Below are positions 19,398 through 54,934 of a DNA stretch of 64,000 nt, piece after piece. Position numbers and translations under genes: made by a program. The DNA comes from an uncultured delta proteobacterium (GTDB taxonomy: Bacteria; Myxococcota_A; Polyangia; Polyangiales; Polyangiaceae): positions 1-64,000 of the forward strand of contig CAIVJW010000156.1 in NCBI GenBank assembly GCA_903906315.1. The letters run 5' to 3'. Each line of letters starts with the position of its first letter. Within the stretch, counting starts at the first letter, position 1. The notes under the pieces are model-generated. The model searched no databases. It was given only the letters and a program-made list of their open reading frames with translations, and was not told the origin of the DNA.

Positions 19398-20860
19398 GCG
19401 TTCGCGCGAGCTCCCTCCGCTTCGGCCTCGTGATCGGCGCCGGCGTCGCCCTCGCGGGCTGTGGGGTCGAGCCGGCCACCGAGTTCGGCGTGTCGACCTT
19501 CGAGGTCGTCGTGACGAAGGTGAACGGCGCCCCGCCGCCGACGGCCGACAAGCCGCTCGGCGCGAACCACGGCGACACCAAGGACACCTGGGACTTCACG
19601 GTCTCGGCGAAGACGGCGACCGGCGAGCTCGACAAGGAGTTCAATGGATACGTCCGGCTCAGCGTCAATCCCGGCGCCGTCGAGGCCGTGCGTGGCGTGG
19701 CCGCGCGAGGGCGCAATGTCCTCCTGCGCGACGGCAAGGCGGCGGGCTCGGTCGACGTCCTGCTCGTCTACGGCCCGGTTCGCCTGTGGGCCGAGGACCT
19801 CGGCTACCTGCCGGTCGGTCTCACCAGCACGAAGAAGCCCTCGTGCTCCAATGGCGCGGACGACAACGGCGATCGGCTGATCGACTTTCCGGCGGACCCT
19901 GGCTGCTACGCCGCCGATGACGACAACGAGGACGGCGGATCGTACGCCGCCGGCGTCTCCGCGCCGATCCACTACGCGCTGCCGCGCATCAGCGACGTCC
20001 GCGGCCCTTCGGGGACGCCGTACCCGTACGACGCCATCGAGGTGAAGGCCGACCCGCCGCAGGAGCTCGTCGTCACGCGCGTCGCGAGCGACGGCTTCTA
20101 CGTCACCGACGTGGCCGCAGCGGAGGCGAGCCACGGCTTCAACTCCATCTTCGCGTTCAACTTCTCGATGCCGGCCGGCATGCGCGTCTGCGATCGGGTC
20201 ACGTACCTCGCCGGCACCGCGAACGTGTTCTTCGGCTTCACCGAGCTGTCGTTCCCGTCGTTCCAGCTCTCGTTCCCGCACGTCGGCGACAAGTGCCTCG
20301 TCCCGGAGCCGGTGCTGCTCGACAAGAAGGTCCTCGGCGACCCGCGCGCCATGAAGGCCATCGAGAGCTCGCTCGCGCGCGTCGAGGGCTACCGGATTGG
20401 CAAGTTTCTCGGCCCCGACGTCGCGAAGGGCAACAAGCCCGGCGTCGGCCGCTCGAACTGCGACTTCAACGGCAACGGGCAGATCGACTACGAGACCGAC
20501 CTCGAGGGATCCTGCTCCGACGTCTGCACGAAGGACCCGGACTGCAGCGAGTGGACGGCTTACCTGGCCCGCAACACCTTCAAGATGGCGCTGGGCGAAG
20601 GCCCGAACGCCGCGATGATCCTGGCCAACGCCACCTCGGTCTCGGGCTTCGACCCCGTGGGGCACGTGGGCGAGGCGATCCCCTCGATGACTGGCACGCT
20701 CCGCTTCTTCAGCGGCGGCAAGCTCAACTGGACGCTCGAGGCGCGCTGCTCGGACGACATGGTCTGCAAAGGCGCCGGATGTCAGGCGAAGGCGCTCTCC
20801 TCCCAGCAGGCGTGTGTCCGACTCCGTAGCATCGAAGACAACGATCAAGGAACGAACTGA
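19394..20860 (+). CDS. lipoprotein, middle gene of the 5'-nucleotidase operon
   Basis: A 488-aa lipoprotein (lipobox ALAGC near residue 23). It contains a Ca-binding-like acidic stretch SNGADDNGDRLIDFPADPGC and a later CDFNGNGQIDYETDLEG, patterns seen in myxobacterial secreted proteins where D-N-G-D loops bind calcium. The rest is predicted beta-rich with no enzyme motif. It overlaps the 5'-nucleotidase gene (ATGA) and ends 5 bp before the outer-membrane barrel gene, so all three are likely one operon and a surface complex. Function unknown. Confidence 0.8.
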   Translation: MSVRASSLRFGLVIGAGVALAGCGVEPATEFGVSTFEVVVTKVNGAPPPTADKPLGANHGDTKDTWDFTVSAKTATGELDKEFNGYVRLSVNPGAVEAVRGVAARGRNVLLRDGKAAGSVDVLLVYGPVRLWAEDLGYLPVGLTSTKKPSCSNGADDNGDRLIDFPADPGCYAADDDNEDGGSYAAGVSAPIHYALPRISDVRGPSGTPYPYDAIEVKADPPQELVVTRVASDGFYVTDVAAAEASHGFNSIFAFNFSMPAGMRVCDRVTYLAGTANVFFGFTELSFPSFQLSFPHVGDKCLVPEPVLLDKKVLGDPRAMKAIESSLARVEGYRIGKFLGPDVAKGNKPGVGRSNCDFNGNGQIDYETDLEGSCSDVCTKDPDCSEWTAYLARNTFKMALGEGPNAAMILANATSVSGFDPVGHVGEAIPSMTGTLRFFSGGKLNWTLEARCSDDMVCKGAGCQAKALSSQQACVRLRSIEDNDQGTN

Positions 20861-20865
20861 CTTCC

Positions 20866-22674
20866 ATGCGATCCCGAGCACTCGTCGCTTCGCTGGCCTC
20901 CACGGTCCTCCTCGTCACGCTGTCGCCGCTCGCCGCGGCCGAGGAGCCGCCGGTCGACAAGGCGCGCGCGCCCGAGGGGGCCGGCGCGCCCTTCGCGCCG
21001 CCGTCCACTGCCGAGGCTCCCAAGTCGGAGGCCCCGGCGCAGGCGGTCGAGTTCGCCCCGCCCGCCGCTGCCTCGGCGCCGCCCGGCGCCGCCGCCGCGC
21101 CCGCCGCGCCAGAGGGCACGCCGGGGGTCGGGACGCTGACGGGCGGCGAGTCGCCGACGCGCATCGGCGACTTCATGGATACCCGCCTGACGTGGACGTT
21201 CGGCGATGACGACGTCCTCCACCAGACCGGGCAAGCCTTCCCGCTGTCGCCCAATGCCAGCATCGGCGATCGCAAGCAGTACCGGCTGTTCTTCGACAAC
21301 CTGAACTCGCGCTTCGGTGGCCGCGAGAACCTGACGCACCTGGCGCTCTACAAGAAGATGCCGGGGTTCATCAAGAACCTCGACACCGAGGCGTCGCTCG
21401 TCCTGCGCTTCGACATCGGCTCTCTCGCGTCGAACAGCGGCAACCTGAACCAGGCCATCTATGACGCGGGCTCGTACATTCGGGCCTTCTATCACACGGA
21501 CGGCAAGGCGAATGGCAAGGAGGGCTTGGGCCTCACGTTCTGGCCGCTCGACACGGACCGCTTCCGGCTCGGCTATCTCTACGACATCTCGTGGGGCGGG
21601 ACGAACGCCTACATCAACCAGTCGATCTTCCCGCGCCTGCAGGGCAGCGCGCCCGGCGCCAAGATCGGCTACGACCACGAGTACTTCAGCGTCTACGCCG
21701 GCGTGAAGACGGCGCAGATCGTCCAGGTCGAGCAGACGCTGACGCCCGGGACGAGCGAGGTCGAGCAGATCCGTGTCGGCCAGACGAACTACGGCGTCCT
21801 CGGCGGCGCGAGCGCCGACCCGTTCGACATGCTGCGTATCGACGTCGGCGGCGGGTACTTCCAGCAGGGCAAGTTCGACCTGCCCGATGTGGCCGGCAAG
21901 CCGGTCTACACGTACGGCGTCTCGGCCCGGGTCGTCGCGCACCACAAGGACCAGCCGGTCGCTCAGTCGATCGACTTCCTGCTCTACCGGAACGACCCGA
22001 ACAAGGCGCAGATCATCTTCAGGCCCGAGACGTACACGGCCGGCAAGACGACCTGGTCGGTCAGCGCCGAGTTCTCGAACCTGTTCCAGAACCTGAAGGA
22101 CTTCGACGCCGCCGGGCAGACGGCCACGCAGCAGGCGCGCGCCGCCGCGCTCCAGGCCAACGTGAAGAGCGGGTTCCTGCGGGCCAGCGTGACGGGCATC
22201 TATCGCGACCTGCCGTTCGTGCTCCGCAATCAGCCGAGCTACATCCCGTTCGAGACGCTGCCGAAGGACGCGAAGACCACCGACGAAATGTTCTTCGCCG
22301 CGGCGCTCGATTACTACTTCGACAGCATCCACCTGACGCCGGGCCTGGGCGCAGGTCTGCAGATCCCCTCGACGTTCCAGTCGGAGTCGACGGACTCGTC
22401 GAGCGCGCCGATCAACCGCACCGTCGTCGTGCGCGAGCAGGGCAACATCGCCATCTTGCCGGTCAACGCGAAGGCGCAGCCGATCATCCAGGCGCGCTTC
22501 AGCCTGCGCTGGGACATCTCTCGCATCCTGTCCGCGATGGTGTGGGCGCAGTTCATCCACGACAACAACGGCACGTTCGTCCAGCGCGATCCGAGCGAGG
22601 GGACCGTGGCACTCCGCACGTTCATCAGCCCGGACTTCTTCGGTCTCGGAACGAGCGTGCAGGCGCGGTTCTAG
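20866..22674 (+). CDS. outer-membrane beta-barrel protein
   Basis: A 602-aa protein with a Sec signal peptide (cleavage likely after PLAAA near residue 25), a Pro/Ala-rich linker to about residue 95, and a long run of alternating amphipathic strands with many Tyr/Phe residues (FRLGYLYDISWGG, YFSVYAGVKTAQIV, FRPETYTAGKTTWSVSAEFS). It ends in VQARF: a terminal Phe, as expected for BAM-assembled barrels. It may act as a channel or anchor for products of the two lipoprotein genes just upstream. No specific family is recognised. Confidence 0.8.
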   Translation: MRSRALVASLASTVLLVTLSPLAAAEEPPVDKARAPEGAGAPFAPPSTAEAPKSEAPAQAVEFAPPAAASAPPGAAAAPAAPEGTPGVGTLTGGESPTRIGDFMDTRLTWTFGDDDVLHQTGQAFPLSPNASIGDRKQYRLFFDNLNSRFGGRENLTHLALYKKMPGFIKNLDTEASLVLRFDIGSLASNSGNLNQAIYDAGSYIRAFYHTDGKANGKEGLGLTFWPLDTDRFRLGYLYDISWGGTNAYINQSIFPRLQGSAPGAKIGYDHEYFSVYAGVKTAQIVQVEQTLTPGTSEVEQIRVGQTNYGVLGGASADPFDMLRIDVGGGYFQQGKFDLPDVAGKPVYTYGVSARVVAHHKDQPVAQSIDFLLYRNDPNKAQIIFRPETYTAGKTTWSVSAEFSNLFQNLKDFDAAGQTATQQARAAALQANVKSGFLRASVTGIYRDLPFVLRNQPSYIPFETLPKDAKTTDEMFFAAALDYYFDSIHLTPGLGAGLQIPSTFQSESTDSSSAPINRTVVVREQGNIAILPVNAKAQPIIQARFSLRWDISRILSAMVWAQFIHDNNGTFVQRDPSEGTVALRTFISPDFFGLGTSVQARF

Positions 22675-41726: not shown

Positions 41727-42428
41727 CTAGAGCGATCCCGAGAGCCCGACGCCCATCGTGCGGTCGCCGACGCGCATCGGCGCGACGGTGACGCGGCTCG
41801 AGAGGTCGTTGCGCAGCAGGTACGTGTCCTTGAGGACCGCGCCGGCGATCGCGAGGGCGAGGCCGGCGCTCTGCCCGAGGCCGTCGAGCACGAGGACGGC
41901 GGTGCCGAGGTCGGCCGACGGTGCCGTTCCGATGGTCACGAAGGGCCCGACGACCGGGATGTAGAGCGGGCCGAACCGCGCTGCGCTCGAGGCGGCGGAG
42001 GCGACCGCGCCCGTGAGCAGCGAGAGCACCCAGAGCGAGCCGAGCGTCACGGTGCCGCCGATGAACATGCCCTTGCGCATCTCGGTCACGGGCCGATACC
42101 CCGGGCGGACCGGCTGCCCCTCGACGTAGTCGAGCTGGGGCGGGCCGATCATGGCCGCGGGCATCATCGCGTACATCGGCGGCAGGGGGTAATAGCCCTC
42201 GGGCGGGGGGTAATAGCCCGGCGGGGCAGGGGAATAGCCCTGGGGCGGGGGGGAATAGCCCGGCGGGGCAGGGCGCGCGGCGGGAGGCGCCGACGGTTGC
42301 GCAGCCGCTGGCGGCGCGGGCGGGGTCTGCGCCCCGGCTGCCGTCGTCGCGGCGACGAGGGCGATCGAGGCCCCGACCGCGAATCGTCGCGCACCGCCGG
42401 GACCCACTGATCGGTTCACGCAACGCAT
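41727..42428 (-). CDS. membrane protein with signal peptide and Pro/Tyr-rich heptad repeats
   Basis: A 233-aa envelope protein. The signal peptide (FAVGASIALVAATTAAGAQ) is followed by a Pro/Ala-rich linker and four 7-residue GY[SY]P-P- repeats (about residues 53-80) encoded by a 21-bp DNA repeat. The C-terminal part has a Gly/Ala-rich hydrophobic pair (GMFIGGTVTLGSLWVLSLLTGA and a later VLDGLGQSAGLALAIAGAVL) and ends MGVGLSGSL. I chose the ATG at 42428 because AGGAGG lies 7 nt upstream. Similar small proteins are common in myxobacteria; the function is unknown. Confidence 0.75.
   Translation of the reverse strand: MRCVNRSVGPGGARRFAVGASIALVAATTAAGAQTPPAPPAAAQPSAPPAARPAPPGYSPPPQGYSPAPPGYYPPPEGYYPLPPMYAMMPAAMIGPPQLDYVEGQPVRPGYRPVTEMRKGMFIGGTVTLGSLWVLSLLTGAVASAASSAARFGPLYIPVVGPFVTIGTAPSADLGTAVLVLDGLGQSAGLALAIAGAVLKDTYLLRNDLSSRVTVAPMRVGDRTMGVGLSGSL
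42185..42268. repeat. 21-bp in-gene tandem repeat, four copies
   Basis: The core AATAGCC recurs at 42191, 42212, 42233 and 42254 within G-rich units. It encodes GY[SY]P heptapeptides on the minus strand and keeps the reading frame, so copy number could vary between strains. Confidence 0.8.
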
Positions 42429-51365: not shown

Positions 51366-51803
51366 GTGAGGGTCCGTCAGGACGGGGCAGGGGCGGCGGT
51401 GAGGCTCGGCGGGGCCTCGGGCTCGCGCGCGTTCGTGCTGGCGTTCGTCGTGATCGCGGGCTGCGGCTCGAGCGGCGACGCGACCTCGGCCACCCCAGGC
51501 GATTCGACGACGTCGGTCGTCGGTGGCGGCGGAGGCGGCGAGGGCGGGACCGGCGGCCAAGGCGGCCAGGCGGGCGTCGGCGGCGCCGGTGGTCGAGCGG
51601 GTGGAGGCGGCGCGGGCGTCGGCGGTGCCCCTGCGCACGGTCGCTCTGCCGGCGACCTCGTGAGCGCGGGCCAGGTGGCCAGGAGCCCCGGCTTCAAGAT
51701 GGTGTTCACCCTCGGACAGCCGAGCCAGAACCAAGAGAAGATGTCGTCGCCGAAGTACCGAGTCCAGGGCGGGCTCGTCGGCGCCAGCGGGAGCTTGCCA
51801 TGA
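51366..51803 (+). CDS. short lipoprotein with Gly-rich linker
   Basis: A 145-aa lipoprotein (lipobox VIAGC near residue 34). Residues about 35-92 are a Gly-rich linker (VGGGGGGEGGTGGQGGQAG and similar). The end carries FKMVFTLGQPSQNQEKMSSPKYRVQGGL, a pattern found in myxobacterial proteins close to surface beta-structures. The stop overlaps the ATG of the collagen-like protein gene (ATGA), implying coupled expression and perhaps an anchor for it. Confidence 0.65.
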   Translation: MRVRQDGAGAAVRLGGASGSRAFVLAFVVIAGCGSSGDATSATPGDSTTSVVGGGGGGEGGTGGQGGQAGVGGAGGRAGGGGAGVGGAPAHGRSAGDLVSAGQVARSPGFKMVFTLGQPSQNQEKMSSPKYRVQGGLVGASGSLP

Positions 51804-53419
51804 GGAATCGTTCGGTCCGTCGTGGGCTGTTGTCGGCAACTGCGGTGCTCTGCGCGCTGACGGCATTCGGTGGCGCAGCGAGCGCGGCCGGCGTGCCGAC
51901 GACGGTCACGCACCAGGGGCGCCTCTATGACGCGAACAACGAGCCCATCTCGCAGCAGATGGACATCAAGTTCGCCATCTACGACACCCCAGGTGCGAAG
52001 AACCCGCTATGGACCGAGACGCACGCCGTCTCGTTCGATGACGGGTATTTCTCGGTCGCGCTGGGATCGGTGGCCCCGTTCGACAAGCTCTTCGACGGCT
52101 CGGTCCGGTACCTCGGGATCAGCGTCGGCGCCGATCCGGAGATGACCCCGCGGGCGGAGGTGGGCAGCGTCCCGTACGCCCTCCTCGCCGGGGACGTGAA
52201 TGGTGACATCCACCCGTCGTCCGTGACGGTGAATGGCACGCTCGTGATCGATGGCAATGGCAAATGGGTCGGTCCGGCCGTCGGTCTCCAGGGGCCGCAG
52301 GGCCCCGCGGGCGCCGCCGGTCCCGCGGGCGCTGCCGGTCCTGCGGGCGCTGCCGGTCCTGCGGGCGCGGTTGGTCCTGCCGGGGCCATCGGTCCTCAGG
52401 GCCCCGTGGGGCCGCAGGGCCTCGCTGGCAAGGACGGCGCCGCGGGAGCCGTCGGTCCGGCGGGCGTCGCGGGTGCGCAGGGGCCGGCCGGCAAGGACGG
52501 GTCGGCCGACACCGCGTGCCCCGGGCCGCGCATCGGTGGTGCGTGCCTGCTGGGCCACAGCAACCTGCAGCAGAGCGCGTTCGTCGGCGCCGCGCTGCAG
52601 TGCGCGACGCTGGGCGGGGACATCTGCACCGACAGCCAGGCGTGGCCCTTCACCGTCGGCATCTGGCAGAACCAGTACCTCGGGACGACGGTCGCCGGGA
52701 GCGCGCACTGGACGGCGTCCTTCGGCGACAACGACGCCGGCTACTGGTCGGGCGCCAACGGTGGCACGGGCGACGATCACAGCAGCAACAGCGCGTACGG
52801 CTACGTCTGCTGCGGCGGTTCGACGCCGGTGAACTCGCGCGTGAAGGCGCAGGCGGTTGGCGGCGTCCAGGTGACGGCGATCCACAACGCCGCGGACACG
52901 AACTGGGCCGGTGCGGTGGCCTACTGCGGTGCGCTCAACTCGGATATCTGCAGCGACTCGCAGACGCTCATCATCCGGAAGGCCGGCTTCCTCACGGTCG
53001 CGAACTGGACGAACTCGCACGCGGACAACGACGCGAGCCTCTACAACGCGATCACCGGGCAGACGAGCGACGACACGCACCCGTCATACACCTACGGATT
53101 CGCGTGCTGCGCGTCGAACCTGCCGCTGGACCTGAAGTGCCCGGTCGCGCCGACGTCGGGCGTCTGCGCCGTCTCCATTCACAACACGGCGGACACGGCC
53201 TTCGAGGCCGCGGCGACGGCGTGCGCCAGCCAGGGCGCCGACCTCTGCTCCACGGCCCAGGCCTCCGTGCTCCGCACCGTGAACCAGCTGACGGTGCCGG
53301 TCTGGACGAACTCGCATTCGGACAACGACTCGAGCAACGCCGCGGTCGGCGTGGGTAACGGCGTGCCCGACAACCCGCTGCTCACCGCGCAGTACGGCTA
53401 CGCCTGCTGCGTTAAGTAG
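51800..53419 (+). CDS. secreted collagen-like protein with three Cys-rich repeat domains
   Basis: A 539-aa secreted protein. Sec signal (FGGAASAAG near residue 30), then a beta domain of about 110 residues (THQGRLYDANNEPISQQMDI to PRAEVGSVPYALLAGD) that often precedes collagen stretches. Collagen-like Gly-X-Y triplets run from about 162 to 235 (GPQGPAGAAGPAGAAGPAG). Three related domains follow (about 236-335, 350-432, 440-538), each with a CA-L-G-DICTDSQ / DLCSTAQ block, a Trp-Thr-N-S-H-DND block and a terminal YGYACC. The paired Cys suggest disulfides. Probably a surface or matrix adhesin. The 3' end is followed by a hairpin and a repeat array. Confidence 0.85.
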   Translation: MRNRSVRRGLLSATAVLCALTAFGGAASAAGVPTTVTHQGRLYDANNEPISQQMDIKFAIYDTPGAKNPLWTETHAVSFDDGYFSVALGSVAPFDKLFDGSVRYLGISVGADPEMTPRAEVGSVPYALLAGDVNGDIHPSSVTVNGTLVIDGNGKWVGPAVGLQGPQGPAGAAGPAGAAGPAGAAGPAGAVGPAGAIGPQGPVGPQGLAGKDGAAGAVGPAGVAGAQGPAGKDGSADTACPGPRIGGACLLGHSNLQQSAFVGAALQCATLGGDICTDSQAWPFTVGIWQNQYLGTTVAGSAHWTASFGDNDAGYWSGANGGTGDDHSSNSAYGYVCCGGSTPVNSRVKAQAVGGVQVTAIHNAADTNWAGAVAYCGALNSDICSDSQTLIIRKAGFLTVANWTNSHADNDASLYNAITGQTSDDTHPSYTYGFACCASNLPLDLKCPVAPTSGVCAVSIHNTADTAFEAAATACASQGADLCSTAQASVLRTVNQLTVPVWTNSHSDNDSSNAAVGVGNGVPDNPLLTAQYGYACCVK

Positions 53420-53423
53420 AGAT

Positions 53424-53441
53424 GGGGCCGCGAGCGGCCCC
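53424..53441 (+). terminator. 7-bp GC hairpin after the collagen-like gene
   Basis: GGGGCCG, loop CGAG, CGGCCCC, starting 5 nt after the TAG at 53419. A stable stem without U-tract. It merges with the first unit of the 90-bp repeat array. Confidence 0.5.
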
Positions 53442-53776
53442 AAACCCCACGGTCCTTCGGACCGTTCGCGCGGCGCGGGCCGCGCGTTCGGCTGGGGCGG
53501 TGGCGTGGTCGCGGGGGGCGCGAGCGGCCCCAAACCCCACGGTCCTTCGGACCGTTCGCGCGGCGCGGGCCGCGCGTTCGGCTGGGGCGGTGGCGTGATC
53601 GCGGGGGGCGCGAGCGGCCCCAAACCGCACGGTCGTTCGGACCGTTCGCGCGGCGCGGGCCGCGCGTTCGGCTGGGGCGGTGGCGTGGTCGCGGGGGGCG
53701 CGAGCGGCCCCAAACCGCACGGTCGTTCGGACCGTTCGCGCGGCGTGGGCCGCGCGTTCGGCTGGGGCGGTGGCGT
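53431..53776. repeat. 90-bp intergenic tandem repeat, nearly four copies
   Basis: Units start at 53431, 53521, 53611 and 53701 (CGAGCGGCCCCAAACC), period exactly 90 bp, the last partial. Copies differ by single bases (CCCAC/CGCAC, TCC/TCG, GTGG/GTGA). Each contains a hairpin: ACGGTCC-TTC-GGACCGT in the first two copies, weakened by a CG change in the others. Together with flanks it fills the 459-bp gap 53420-53878 between the collagen-like gene and holA. Because 90 is a multiple of three, several frames stay open and spell repetitive peptides that are not convincing genes. Confidence 0.9.
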
Positions 53777-53878
53777 GAGCGATCGTTCGGGCCCGGCGCA
53801 CGGCGAAGTGCGCGCGGAAGCGAGCTTGCCGGTTGGCTCGTCCTTGACGCGACGCGCGCCCCGCTCGATGCGTGCGCC

Positions 53879-54934
53879 GTGACGCCCGACCAGGCCCTCG
53901 CCACCGCGCGCGCCGGTAAACTGCGCCCTGTCTACCTCGTGCTCGGCGAGGAGCGTTGGCACACGCAGCGCGTGGTGTCGGCGCTGCGGGAGGCCACGAC
54001 CAAGGGGGGCGTGGCGGGGTTCAACGAGGACAAGTTCACCGCCGGCGAAGCGAGCGCGTCGGCCGTCGTGTCCGCCGCGCGCATGCTCCCGATGATGGCG
54101 CCGCGCCGCTTCGTGCTCGTTCGCGGGCTCGAGCGCTGGGAAAAGAAGGCCGCGGACGACGAGGACGAAGCCGGCGCGGAAGAGGACTCGGCGAAGGGCT
54201 CGCGCGGGGCTGCCCCGCTCGATGAGCTCGCCGAGTACGTGAAGGCGCCCGTCGACTCGACGGTGCTCGTGCTGGTCGCGACCAAGCTGAACGCGCAGCG
54301 TCGCCTCGTCACGGCCGCCAAGAAGGGCGACTTCGTGGTGGCCTGCGAGGCCGTCTCGCGCGGCGCGTTGCCTGGGGTCGTCACGGCGATGGCGCGCGAG
54401 CGCGGCCACGCGATCGACGCCCGCGTCGCGGATCTCCTCGCGGAGACCGCCGGCCCCGAGCTGAGCCCCGTCGCCGACGCGGTCGAGCGGCTGTCGCTCT
54501 ACGTCGGCCCGGGCGCGGCGATTGGCGAGGACGCGGTTGCGGCCGTCGTGACGCGGCTGCGGCAGAGCACGGTCTGGGAGCTGCTCGACACGATCGCGAC
54601 GCGCCGGCTGGACCGGGCGCTCGCGGTGCTCGACGACGTCTTCGACGTCCGCGACGGGGGCCTGCGCCTGCTCGCCACGATTGCGTGGTCGGTCCGTCAG
54701 CTCACGAAGTTCGAGTCGGCGCTCGCCGCCGGCGCGAGCGGGCCCGAGGCCGCGCAGCGCGCTGGCGTGCCCGGCTTCAAGGTCGGCGAGGTCGCGCAGA
54801 CGGTCCGCCACATGCCGCGCGGCAAGCTCACCACCTGGCTGCGCCTCCTGGCCGAGGCCGACCTCGCGCTGAAGAGCTCGAGGCGCCCCGCGCACGCGAT
54901 CCTGGAGGCGATGATCGTCGACATGTGTCGGTGA
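53879..54934 (+). CDS. holA: DNA polymerase III delta subunit
   Basis: A 351-aa clamp-loader subunit that opens the beta clamp. The start has KLRPVYLVLGEERWHTQRVVSALREA, then AARMLPMMAPRRFVLVRGLERWEK, the clamp-contacting region of the family. The C-terminal collar domain is recognisable (LLATIAWSVRQLTKFESAL, RLLAEADLALKSSRRPAHAILEAMIVDM). A Glu/Asp-rich stretch around residues 85-105 (DDEDEAGAEED) is an insertion compared with the usual protein. Start is a GTG. Stop overlaps the MFS gene GTG. Confidence 0.9.
   Translation: MTPDQALATARAGKLRPVYLVLGEERWHTQRVVSALREATTKGGVAGFNEDKFTAGEASASAVVSAARMLPMMAPRRFVLVRGLERWEKKAADDEDEAGAEEDSAKGSRGAAPLDELAEYVKAPVDSTVLVLVATKLNAQRRLVTAAKKGDFVVACEAVSRGALPGVVTAMARERGHAIDARVADLLAETAGPELSPVADAVERLSLYVGPGAAIGEDAVAAVVTRLRQSTVWELLDTIATRRLDRALAVLDDVFDVRDGGLRLLATIAWSVRQLTKFESALAAGASGPEAAQRAGVPGFKVGEVAQTVRHMPRGKLTTWLRLLAEADLALKSSRRPAHAILEAMIVDMCR

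Follow-up and report, generated by a model that had tools for sequence, protein, structure and literature searches.

The window, a stretch of 64,000 nucleotides from an uncultured delta proteobacterium of the family Polyangiaceae, contains one tandem array that is by far the strongest of the stretch. It was placed by TRF at 53424–53777, with a period of 90, 3.9 copies, 97% matches, 0% indels and a score of 659. The original prediction of a 90-bp tandem repeat in nearly four copies that differ at single positions is thereby confirmed, except that the copies are 97–99% identical rather than exact and that the array starts 7 bases before the 53431 originally given. The array is flanked by a gene for a collagen-like protein and by holA, and the features of the locus are as follows.

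51800–53419, plus strand: upstream gene for a collagen-like protein (Pfam Collagen, 8.5e-13), whose TAG stop codon at 53417–53419 abuts the element
53412–53470, plus strand: copy 1, the sole canonical 59-nt element of the array, with stop-codon leader, hairpin 1, AAACCCC and hairpin 2 (covariance model R1, trained on an alignment that included this copy: 73.1 bits, E 1.9e-14)
53423–53442, plus strand: hairpin 1, TGGGGCCG-CGAG-CGGCCCCA, nearly invariant in the family (98.9% of cells paired)
53442–53448, plus strand: conserved linker AAACCCC, the first A of which is paired within hairpin 1
53449–53465, plus strand: hairpin 2, ACGGTCC-TTC-GGACCGT, locus-variable and covarying, with no T-run after it
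53466–53513, plus strand: locus-specific spacer, within the 90-bp repeat and outside the dispersed family (query positions 1–90 are matched by this array alone)
53514–53603, plus strand: copy 2, with a G.G mismatch in hairpin 1
53604–53693, plus strand: copy 3, with a G.G mismatch in hairpin 1 and one hairpin 2 pair lost
53694–53777, plus strand: copy 4, 84 of 90 bp
53879–54934, plus strand: holA (DNA polymerase III delta), downstream on the same strand (Pfam DNA_pol3_delta, DNA_pol3_delta_C)

Copy 1 starts with TAGAGATGGGGCC, and copies 2–4 start with GTCGCGGGGGGC or ATCGCGGGGGGC. The G.G mismatch in hairpin 1 is shared by copies 2–4, and in copies 3 and 4 CCGCACGGTCG replaces CCCCACGGTCC and one closing pair of hairpin 2 is lost. 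Copy 1 folds as two hairpins at −27.4 kcal/mol (z −3.2), whereas copy 2 no longer folds canonically because of its mismatch. Copies 2–4 are thus derived, which leaves copy 1 as the single canonical one. The palindrome ACGGTCC/GGACCGT had been taken for the core of the unit; the inverted repeat is present, short of one closing pair in copies 3 and 4, but the part conserved in the family is the GGGGCCG/CGGCCCC hairpin together with AAACCCC, and ACGGTCC belongs to a second hairpin that varies from locus to locus. Of the two landmarks proposed to bound the array, holA stands, whereas the terminator-like hairpin at 53423–53442 is no separate landmark: it forms hairpin 1 of copy 1 and so belongs to the element itself. 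Open frames do exist on both strands as had been noticed, but they appear to be incidental: arrays elsewhere in the family have periods of, for example, 35, 49, 50, 52, 55, 56, 64 and 70, often no multiple of three, and for this reason a coding function was rejected. Reading the units as integron attC sites was also set aside, since the units are not known to hold R-box motifs and are too short.

When the genome of the window organism (8.79 Mb in 455 contigs) was searched, the full 90-bp unit was matched at the window locus only, and dozens of other loci matched its first ~40 nt, at lower identity and mostly at unit positions 1–41. The first ~40–59 nt of the unit are a member of a dispersed family, and the 90-bp unit as a whole is local. 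The 13-mer GCGGCCCCAAACC occurs 68 times in the genome (38 on the plus and 30 on the minus strand), against 0 for its reversed control, which bears out the earlier suggestion of a dispersed intergenic repeat family; occurrence at this locus alone is true of the full 90-bp unit and not of its family part. A 20-mer with at most three mismatches was found 218 times against 15 for the control, a count that is inflated because the word is partly palindromic. About 60 loci were fetched, and 35 of them were aligned gap-free to give a 59-nt element with the consensus [stop codon]-GTnnCGAT-GGGGCCG-CRAG-CGGCCCC-AAACCCC-hairpin 2. The leader GTnnCGAT overlaps or abuts the stop codon, and hairpin 1, GGGGCCG-CRAG-CGGCCCC, is nearly invariant among the aligned loci. 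Hairpin 2 usually has 7 bp and a 3-nt loop, and shows compensatory changes between loci, such as GCGCTCC/GGAGCGC, GCCCACC/GGTGGGC, GCGGTCC/GGACCGC and GGGCGGC/GCCGCCC. The 90-bp array is one local, partly decayed array of this family of 59-nt double-hairpin elements.

The pairing of the hairpins is real. In this genome 89% of cells are paired in the two-hairpin structure, against 36–56% when the strands are slid, and in an independent alignment from Minicystis rosea 97.8% are paired against 27–60%, although sequences in both alignments were picked for a recognisable hairpin 2, which favours the percentage paired and not the covariation. Double-changed cells number 32 here against 12.2 in shuffled alignments (score 0.164 against 0.065), and 20 against 4.9 in M. 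rosea (score 0.132 against 0.047); these covariation figures concern hairpin 2, as hairpin 1 varies too little for such testing. In this covarying structure in many copies the element resembles the mobile/repeat or terminator-stem RNA motif candidates of comparative screens (e.g., PMC11109978) and of Rfam. However, Rfam gave 0 matches at the gathering score in the window and chance-level matches only in related loci, the main text of PMC11109978 does not mention Sorangium, Minicystis or Myxococc-, and no published description of the element was found in the literature. The double-hairpin element is previously uncatalogued.

Its distribution among genomes is narrow. The pattern GATGGGGCCGCNAGCGGCCCCAAACC, with at most two mismatches, was scanned over 184 genomes of the order, one of them belonging to the genus of the window organism, together with reversed controls. 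It was found in 318 copies in M. rosea (G087, CP016211), 74 in the window genome, 30 in a Byssovorax sp. metagenome-assembled genome (MAG; G003, JANYGI) and 1 in G019, and in 0 copies in all other genomes of the order; the reversed controls also gave 0. The family covariance model gave results in agreement with these counts, plus 7 hits in one genome of a Polyangium-like genus (genus as we infer it). A looser frame, CGATGGG..CCCAAACCC, occurs in 12–15 copies with different stems in several Polyangium-like genomes. Some of these copies (L359, L373 and L374) follow stop codons and have T-runs, but most belong to a longer repeat that is not tied to stop codons. This longer dispersed repeat (L361–L369 and L376, in G103, G104 and G014) reads CCGGGGTTTCACCCCGG...GGTCAACGATGGGGCTACGCTCGGCAAGCCGAGCTACGCCCCAAACCCCGGGG and shares the CGATGGGG..CCCCAAACCCC frame. 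A wider distribution in Myxococcota by the looser frame was considered and rejected: the frame is genuinely present in the Polyangium-like genus, but its matches in G435 and G397 are not after stop codons and may be unrelated. In the former (L406, G435:C135:19702-20082), a genome from a different family of the same class, there are three tandem units of ~175 bp, each with CGATGGGGGAGCCGGRACGGCTCCCCCAAACCCC, and in the latter, a distant Myxococcota genome, the repeat CTTTCCTCGATGGGGCTGCGCGCCCCAAACCCCCGCCAGGGGTTGGC is present at two loci (L407 and L408, G397:C128 and C773). No element match was found in viral contigs, and a phage origin was rejected on this ground.

The element is a feature of gene ends. 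Its position was tested with the 5'-most copy at each locus and with sense ORFs of at least 80 codons ending close by. A stop codon lies close to the first copy at 26 of 33 loci here, 62 of 82 in M. rosea and 12 of 17 in the Byssovorax MAG, and the commonest offset is −10 from hairpin 1 (14, 22 and 6 loci, respectively). When genes were predicted with a simple caller, the gene upstream had the orientation of the element at 22 of 22 sites here and at 50 of 61 in M. rosea; the latter genome has 11 of 61 sites without a sense gene upstream, 6 further sites inside predicted genes and only 4 between divergent genes. One array of the window genome (L060, G000:C123, ~20690–20951, minus strand, 98/129-bp spacing) starts ~12 nt after a tRNA-Cys gene, and therefore the link is with gene ends rather than with translation. 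At −10 the stop codon is TAG at most loci here and TGA at most loci in M. rosea. The idea that the element includes a preference for TAG was considered and rejected, since 22 of 26 here exceeds a rough window baseline of 13 of 32, but in M. rosea TGA makes up 81% against a baseline of 75%. A stop-codon read-through signal of the PYLIS or SECIS kind was likewise rejected, as no frame is kept past the element and M. rosea mostly has TGA. The element is carried by a small fraction of genes only, and these are mostly not common to the three genomes: 3 of the 26 upstream genes from here have a homologue among the 62 sampled M. rosea genes, which are a partial sample, and one of the three belongs to a family that also has a match in the Byssovorax MAG.

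It could be supposed that the repeat is a DNA-level signal, such as an uptake sequence or a nucleoid or chromosome-segregation site, which is merely located in gene ends. The uptake signals of Neisseria and Pasteurellaceae form terminators (PMC1852404), and there too a fixed repeated sequence makes a hairpin at gene ends; in addition, copies of the element on the plus and minus strands are nearly equal in number. However, the orientation is fixed to transcription, and the covariation of hairpin 2 preserves pairing rather than sequence. The copies are also far below the 1,000 or more that are typical of uptake signals (PMC1852404), and the element is not an inverted pair of one short word, has a second, sequence-variable hairpin and has no known link to transformation. 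A DNA-level signal is therefore very improbable.

An RNA-level role is probable: the position, orientation and structure indicate that the element probably acts as a transcription terminator or as an mRNA 3'-end signal or stabiliser. Like intrinsic (Rho-independent) terminators, it has a GC-rich stem-loop after the stop codon at the gene 3' end. In the Byssovorax MAG hairpin 2 is also directly followed by a U-tract (at least 4 T in 8 nt) at 8 of 15 copies, against 1 of 38 here, and the mean T content after hairpin 2 is 0.38 there against a background of 0.16. Apart from this single copy, the U-tract is absent from this genome and from M. rosea, and none follows the window copy; unlike intrinsic terminators, the element has an invariant hairpin 1 sequence and AAACCCC. 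Over 40 kb of the window, canonical hairpin-plus-T sites do not exceed their frequency in shuffles, so that, with U-tracts lacking after the element here, termination may be Rho-dependent. At rpsI, 25 genomes were compared, and in all of them the protein ends in ...QYSKR. In 11 of the 24 relatives an ordinary terminator, a hairpin ending in a T-rich tail, follows within 130 nt, and in sitting at such a place the element again resembles intrinsic terminators. Here, the native TAG is followed at once by three element copies with a 64-bp period, which suggests that the element may have replaced the ancestral terminator at this gene. Since another, weak hairpin-plus-T candidate is present ~320 nt downstream, the terminator of this gene may be something other than the element.

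The same observations can be read in another way, namely that the element is no terminator but an mRNA 3'-stabilising structure, blocking exonucleases upstream of the true termination site, which might be Rho-dependent. A pair of highly stable GC hairpins immediately following the stop codon would suit such a block, as would the lack of a U-tract in two of the three genomes; the U-tracts of the Byssovorax MAG and the use of the element after a tRNA, which needs no mRNA protection, do not. A purely stabilising role is possible, if doubtful.

Among known elements, those of the REP class come nearest. According to Di Nocera et al. (2013, PMC3733652), most REPs are situated downstream of genes, and the TAG stop is in many cases provided by a GTAG REP. 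Like REPs of the GTAG/CGTC type, the element is a short palindrome dispersed in high copy number, which for the most part lies outside genes and shortly after them, in many cases touching or providing the stop codon; it also shares with them a stem of ~8 bp, a loop of ~4 nt and a range of tens to hundreds of copies in few species. Unlike them, it has no conserved unpaired GTAG or CGTC tag at the palindrome end, where the leader GTnnCGA-T stands beside the stem, and it consists of two different hairpins in fixed order, an invariant one and then a covarying one. It is also strictly in sense orientation, and its clusters are direct rather than inverted: among 102 M. rosea copies, neighbours within 200 bp are inverted in 0 cases and direct in 26, so the inverted dimers of REPs (BIME/REPIN) are absent. 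Mobilisation by a RAYT was rejected because no Y1 transposase (PF01797) was found in the window genome; it was likewise missing from the Byssovorax MAG and from G103 and G104, two of the three Polyangium-like genomes, and one weak match was found in M. rosea and two in G014. By lacking the tag, the inverted dimers and the transposase, and by adding a covarying second hairpin, the element is REP-like in behaviour only. The flanks of 24 single M. rosea copies were no more alike than shuffled ones (p 0.35); a target-site duplication from the TGATC-like left and right flanks of single copies was rejected, as their pairing is not above shuffles, and the element in this respect differs from MITEs and IS-derived elements. 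As tested, it combines REP-like behaviour with terminator-like anatomy and is a member of neither class.

This likeness raises the question of a selfish palindrome with no host function, moved as single-stranded DNA by a transposase and surviving where it is least harmful, just after genes. The patchy distribution among genomes, the small fraction of genes that carry the element and the mostly non-orthologous sites also fit a selfish repeat tolerated at gene ends, and the gene-end preference of REPs, with the TAG supplied by GTAG REPs, is a precedent (PMC3733652). On the other hand, the transposase missing from this genome, the Byssovorax MAG and two of the three Polyangium-like genomes is against it, as are the missing inverted dimers and target-site duplication; the U-tracts in one genus are not accounted for, and a survival filter acting symmetrically at convergent gene pairs gives no reason for the strict sense orientation. 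This reading is considered unlikely.

Tandem arrays are found at many loci of the family, each with its own spacer, and their periods include 35, 42, 49, 50, 52, 54, 55, 56, 64, 70, 77 and 90, among others. M. rosea has arrays of up to 7 copies with a 54–55 bp period. Its genome was assembled from PacBio reads at 217x (PMC8436480), so the arrays are not artefacts. In the window genome, 17 of ~63 element loci lie within 150 bp of a contig end, where ~1 would be expected; thus, arrays interrupt the short-read assembly, and the counts fall short of the true copy numbers. At one such end (L090, G000:C240:1-40, minus strand) an Illumina adapter, AGATCGGAAGAGCACACGTCTGAACTCCAGTCAC, stands untrimmed in the assembly shortly after hairpin 1 and AAACCCC. 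These contig ends, the adapter and the uniqueness of the 90-bp unit as a whole are what could be said for an ordinary local tandem repeat or an assembly artefact with no wider meaning. Such an artefact had been named as a possible undoing of the repeat, but the copies are distinguishable from each other, arrays are present in PacBio-finished M. rosea, and for the family as a whole the idea is refuted by dispersal and covariation; its probability is close to nil.

The explanation we prefer, with moderate confidence, is that the array arose when a dispersed, lineage-specific double-hairpin element of Polyangiaceae-type myxobacteria was amplified locally; the element lies in sense directly after genes and would act in RNA as a 3'-end signal. 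The M. rosea sites that have no sense gene upstream or fall inside predicted genes speak against this. Hairpin 2 would be a stem of the intrinsic-terminator kind, with a U-tract in one genus and without it here, and hairpin 1 with AAACCCC would be an invariant module for reinforcing termination or shielding the 3' end of the mRNA. The family may have spread by copying to new gene ends, sometimes displacing an ancestral terminator. Tandem amplification at many loci could then have arisen by slippage or by unequal recombination between direct copies, with the local spacer carried along, and copies 2–4 of the window would be decaying passengers with damaged hairpins. A more specific and rather improbable version is that hairpin 1 with AAACCCC would be a 3'-end signal recognised by its sequence, for which these myxobacteria would have a specialised RNA-binding or termination factor; the signal would provide gene ends without a U-tract in very GC-rich genomes and spread like a mobile module, replacing older terminators.

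M. rosea, which has 318 copies and whose genome was called the largest of any bacterium when it was published, and its relatives thereby gain an uncatalogued, structurally conserved gene-end element, which a few soil myxobacteria carry after dozens to hundreds of their genes. Because nearly all sister genera lack it, one can trace where it was gained, how it spread and where it was lost. The element also opens two questions to experiment: how transcripts are ended in very GC-rich bacteria that are poor in U-tract terminators, and how short structured repeats multiply when no transposase is obvious. Many of the contig breaks seen when these genomes are assembled from short reads are also explained by its arrays.

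The window holds other repeats. The collagen-like stretch of the gene at 51800–53419 is an 18-bp tandem repeat (52307–52407), and the C-terminal part of its product, which follows this stretch, contains Cys and has three similar modules. The second-strongest tandem repeat of the window lies at 42181–42273, with a 42-bp period, 2.2 copies and a unit of the GGCAGGGGTAATAGCCCTCGG type.
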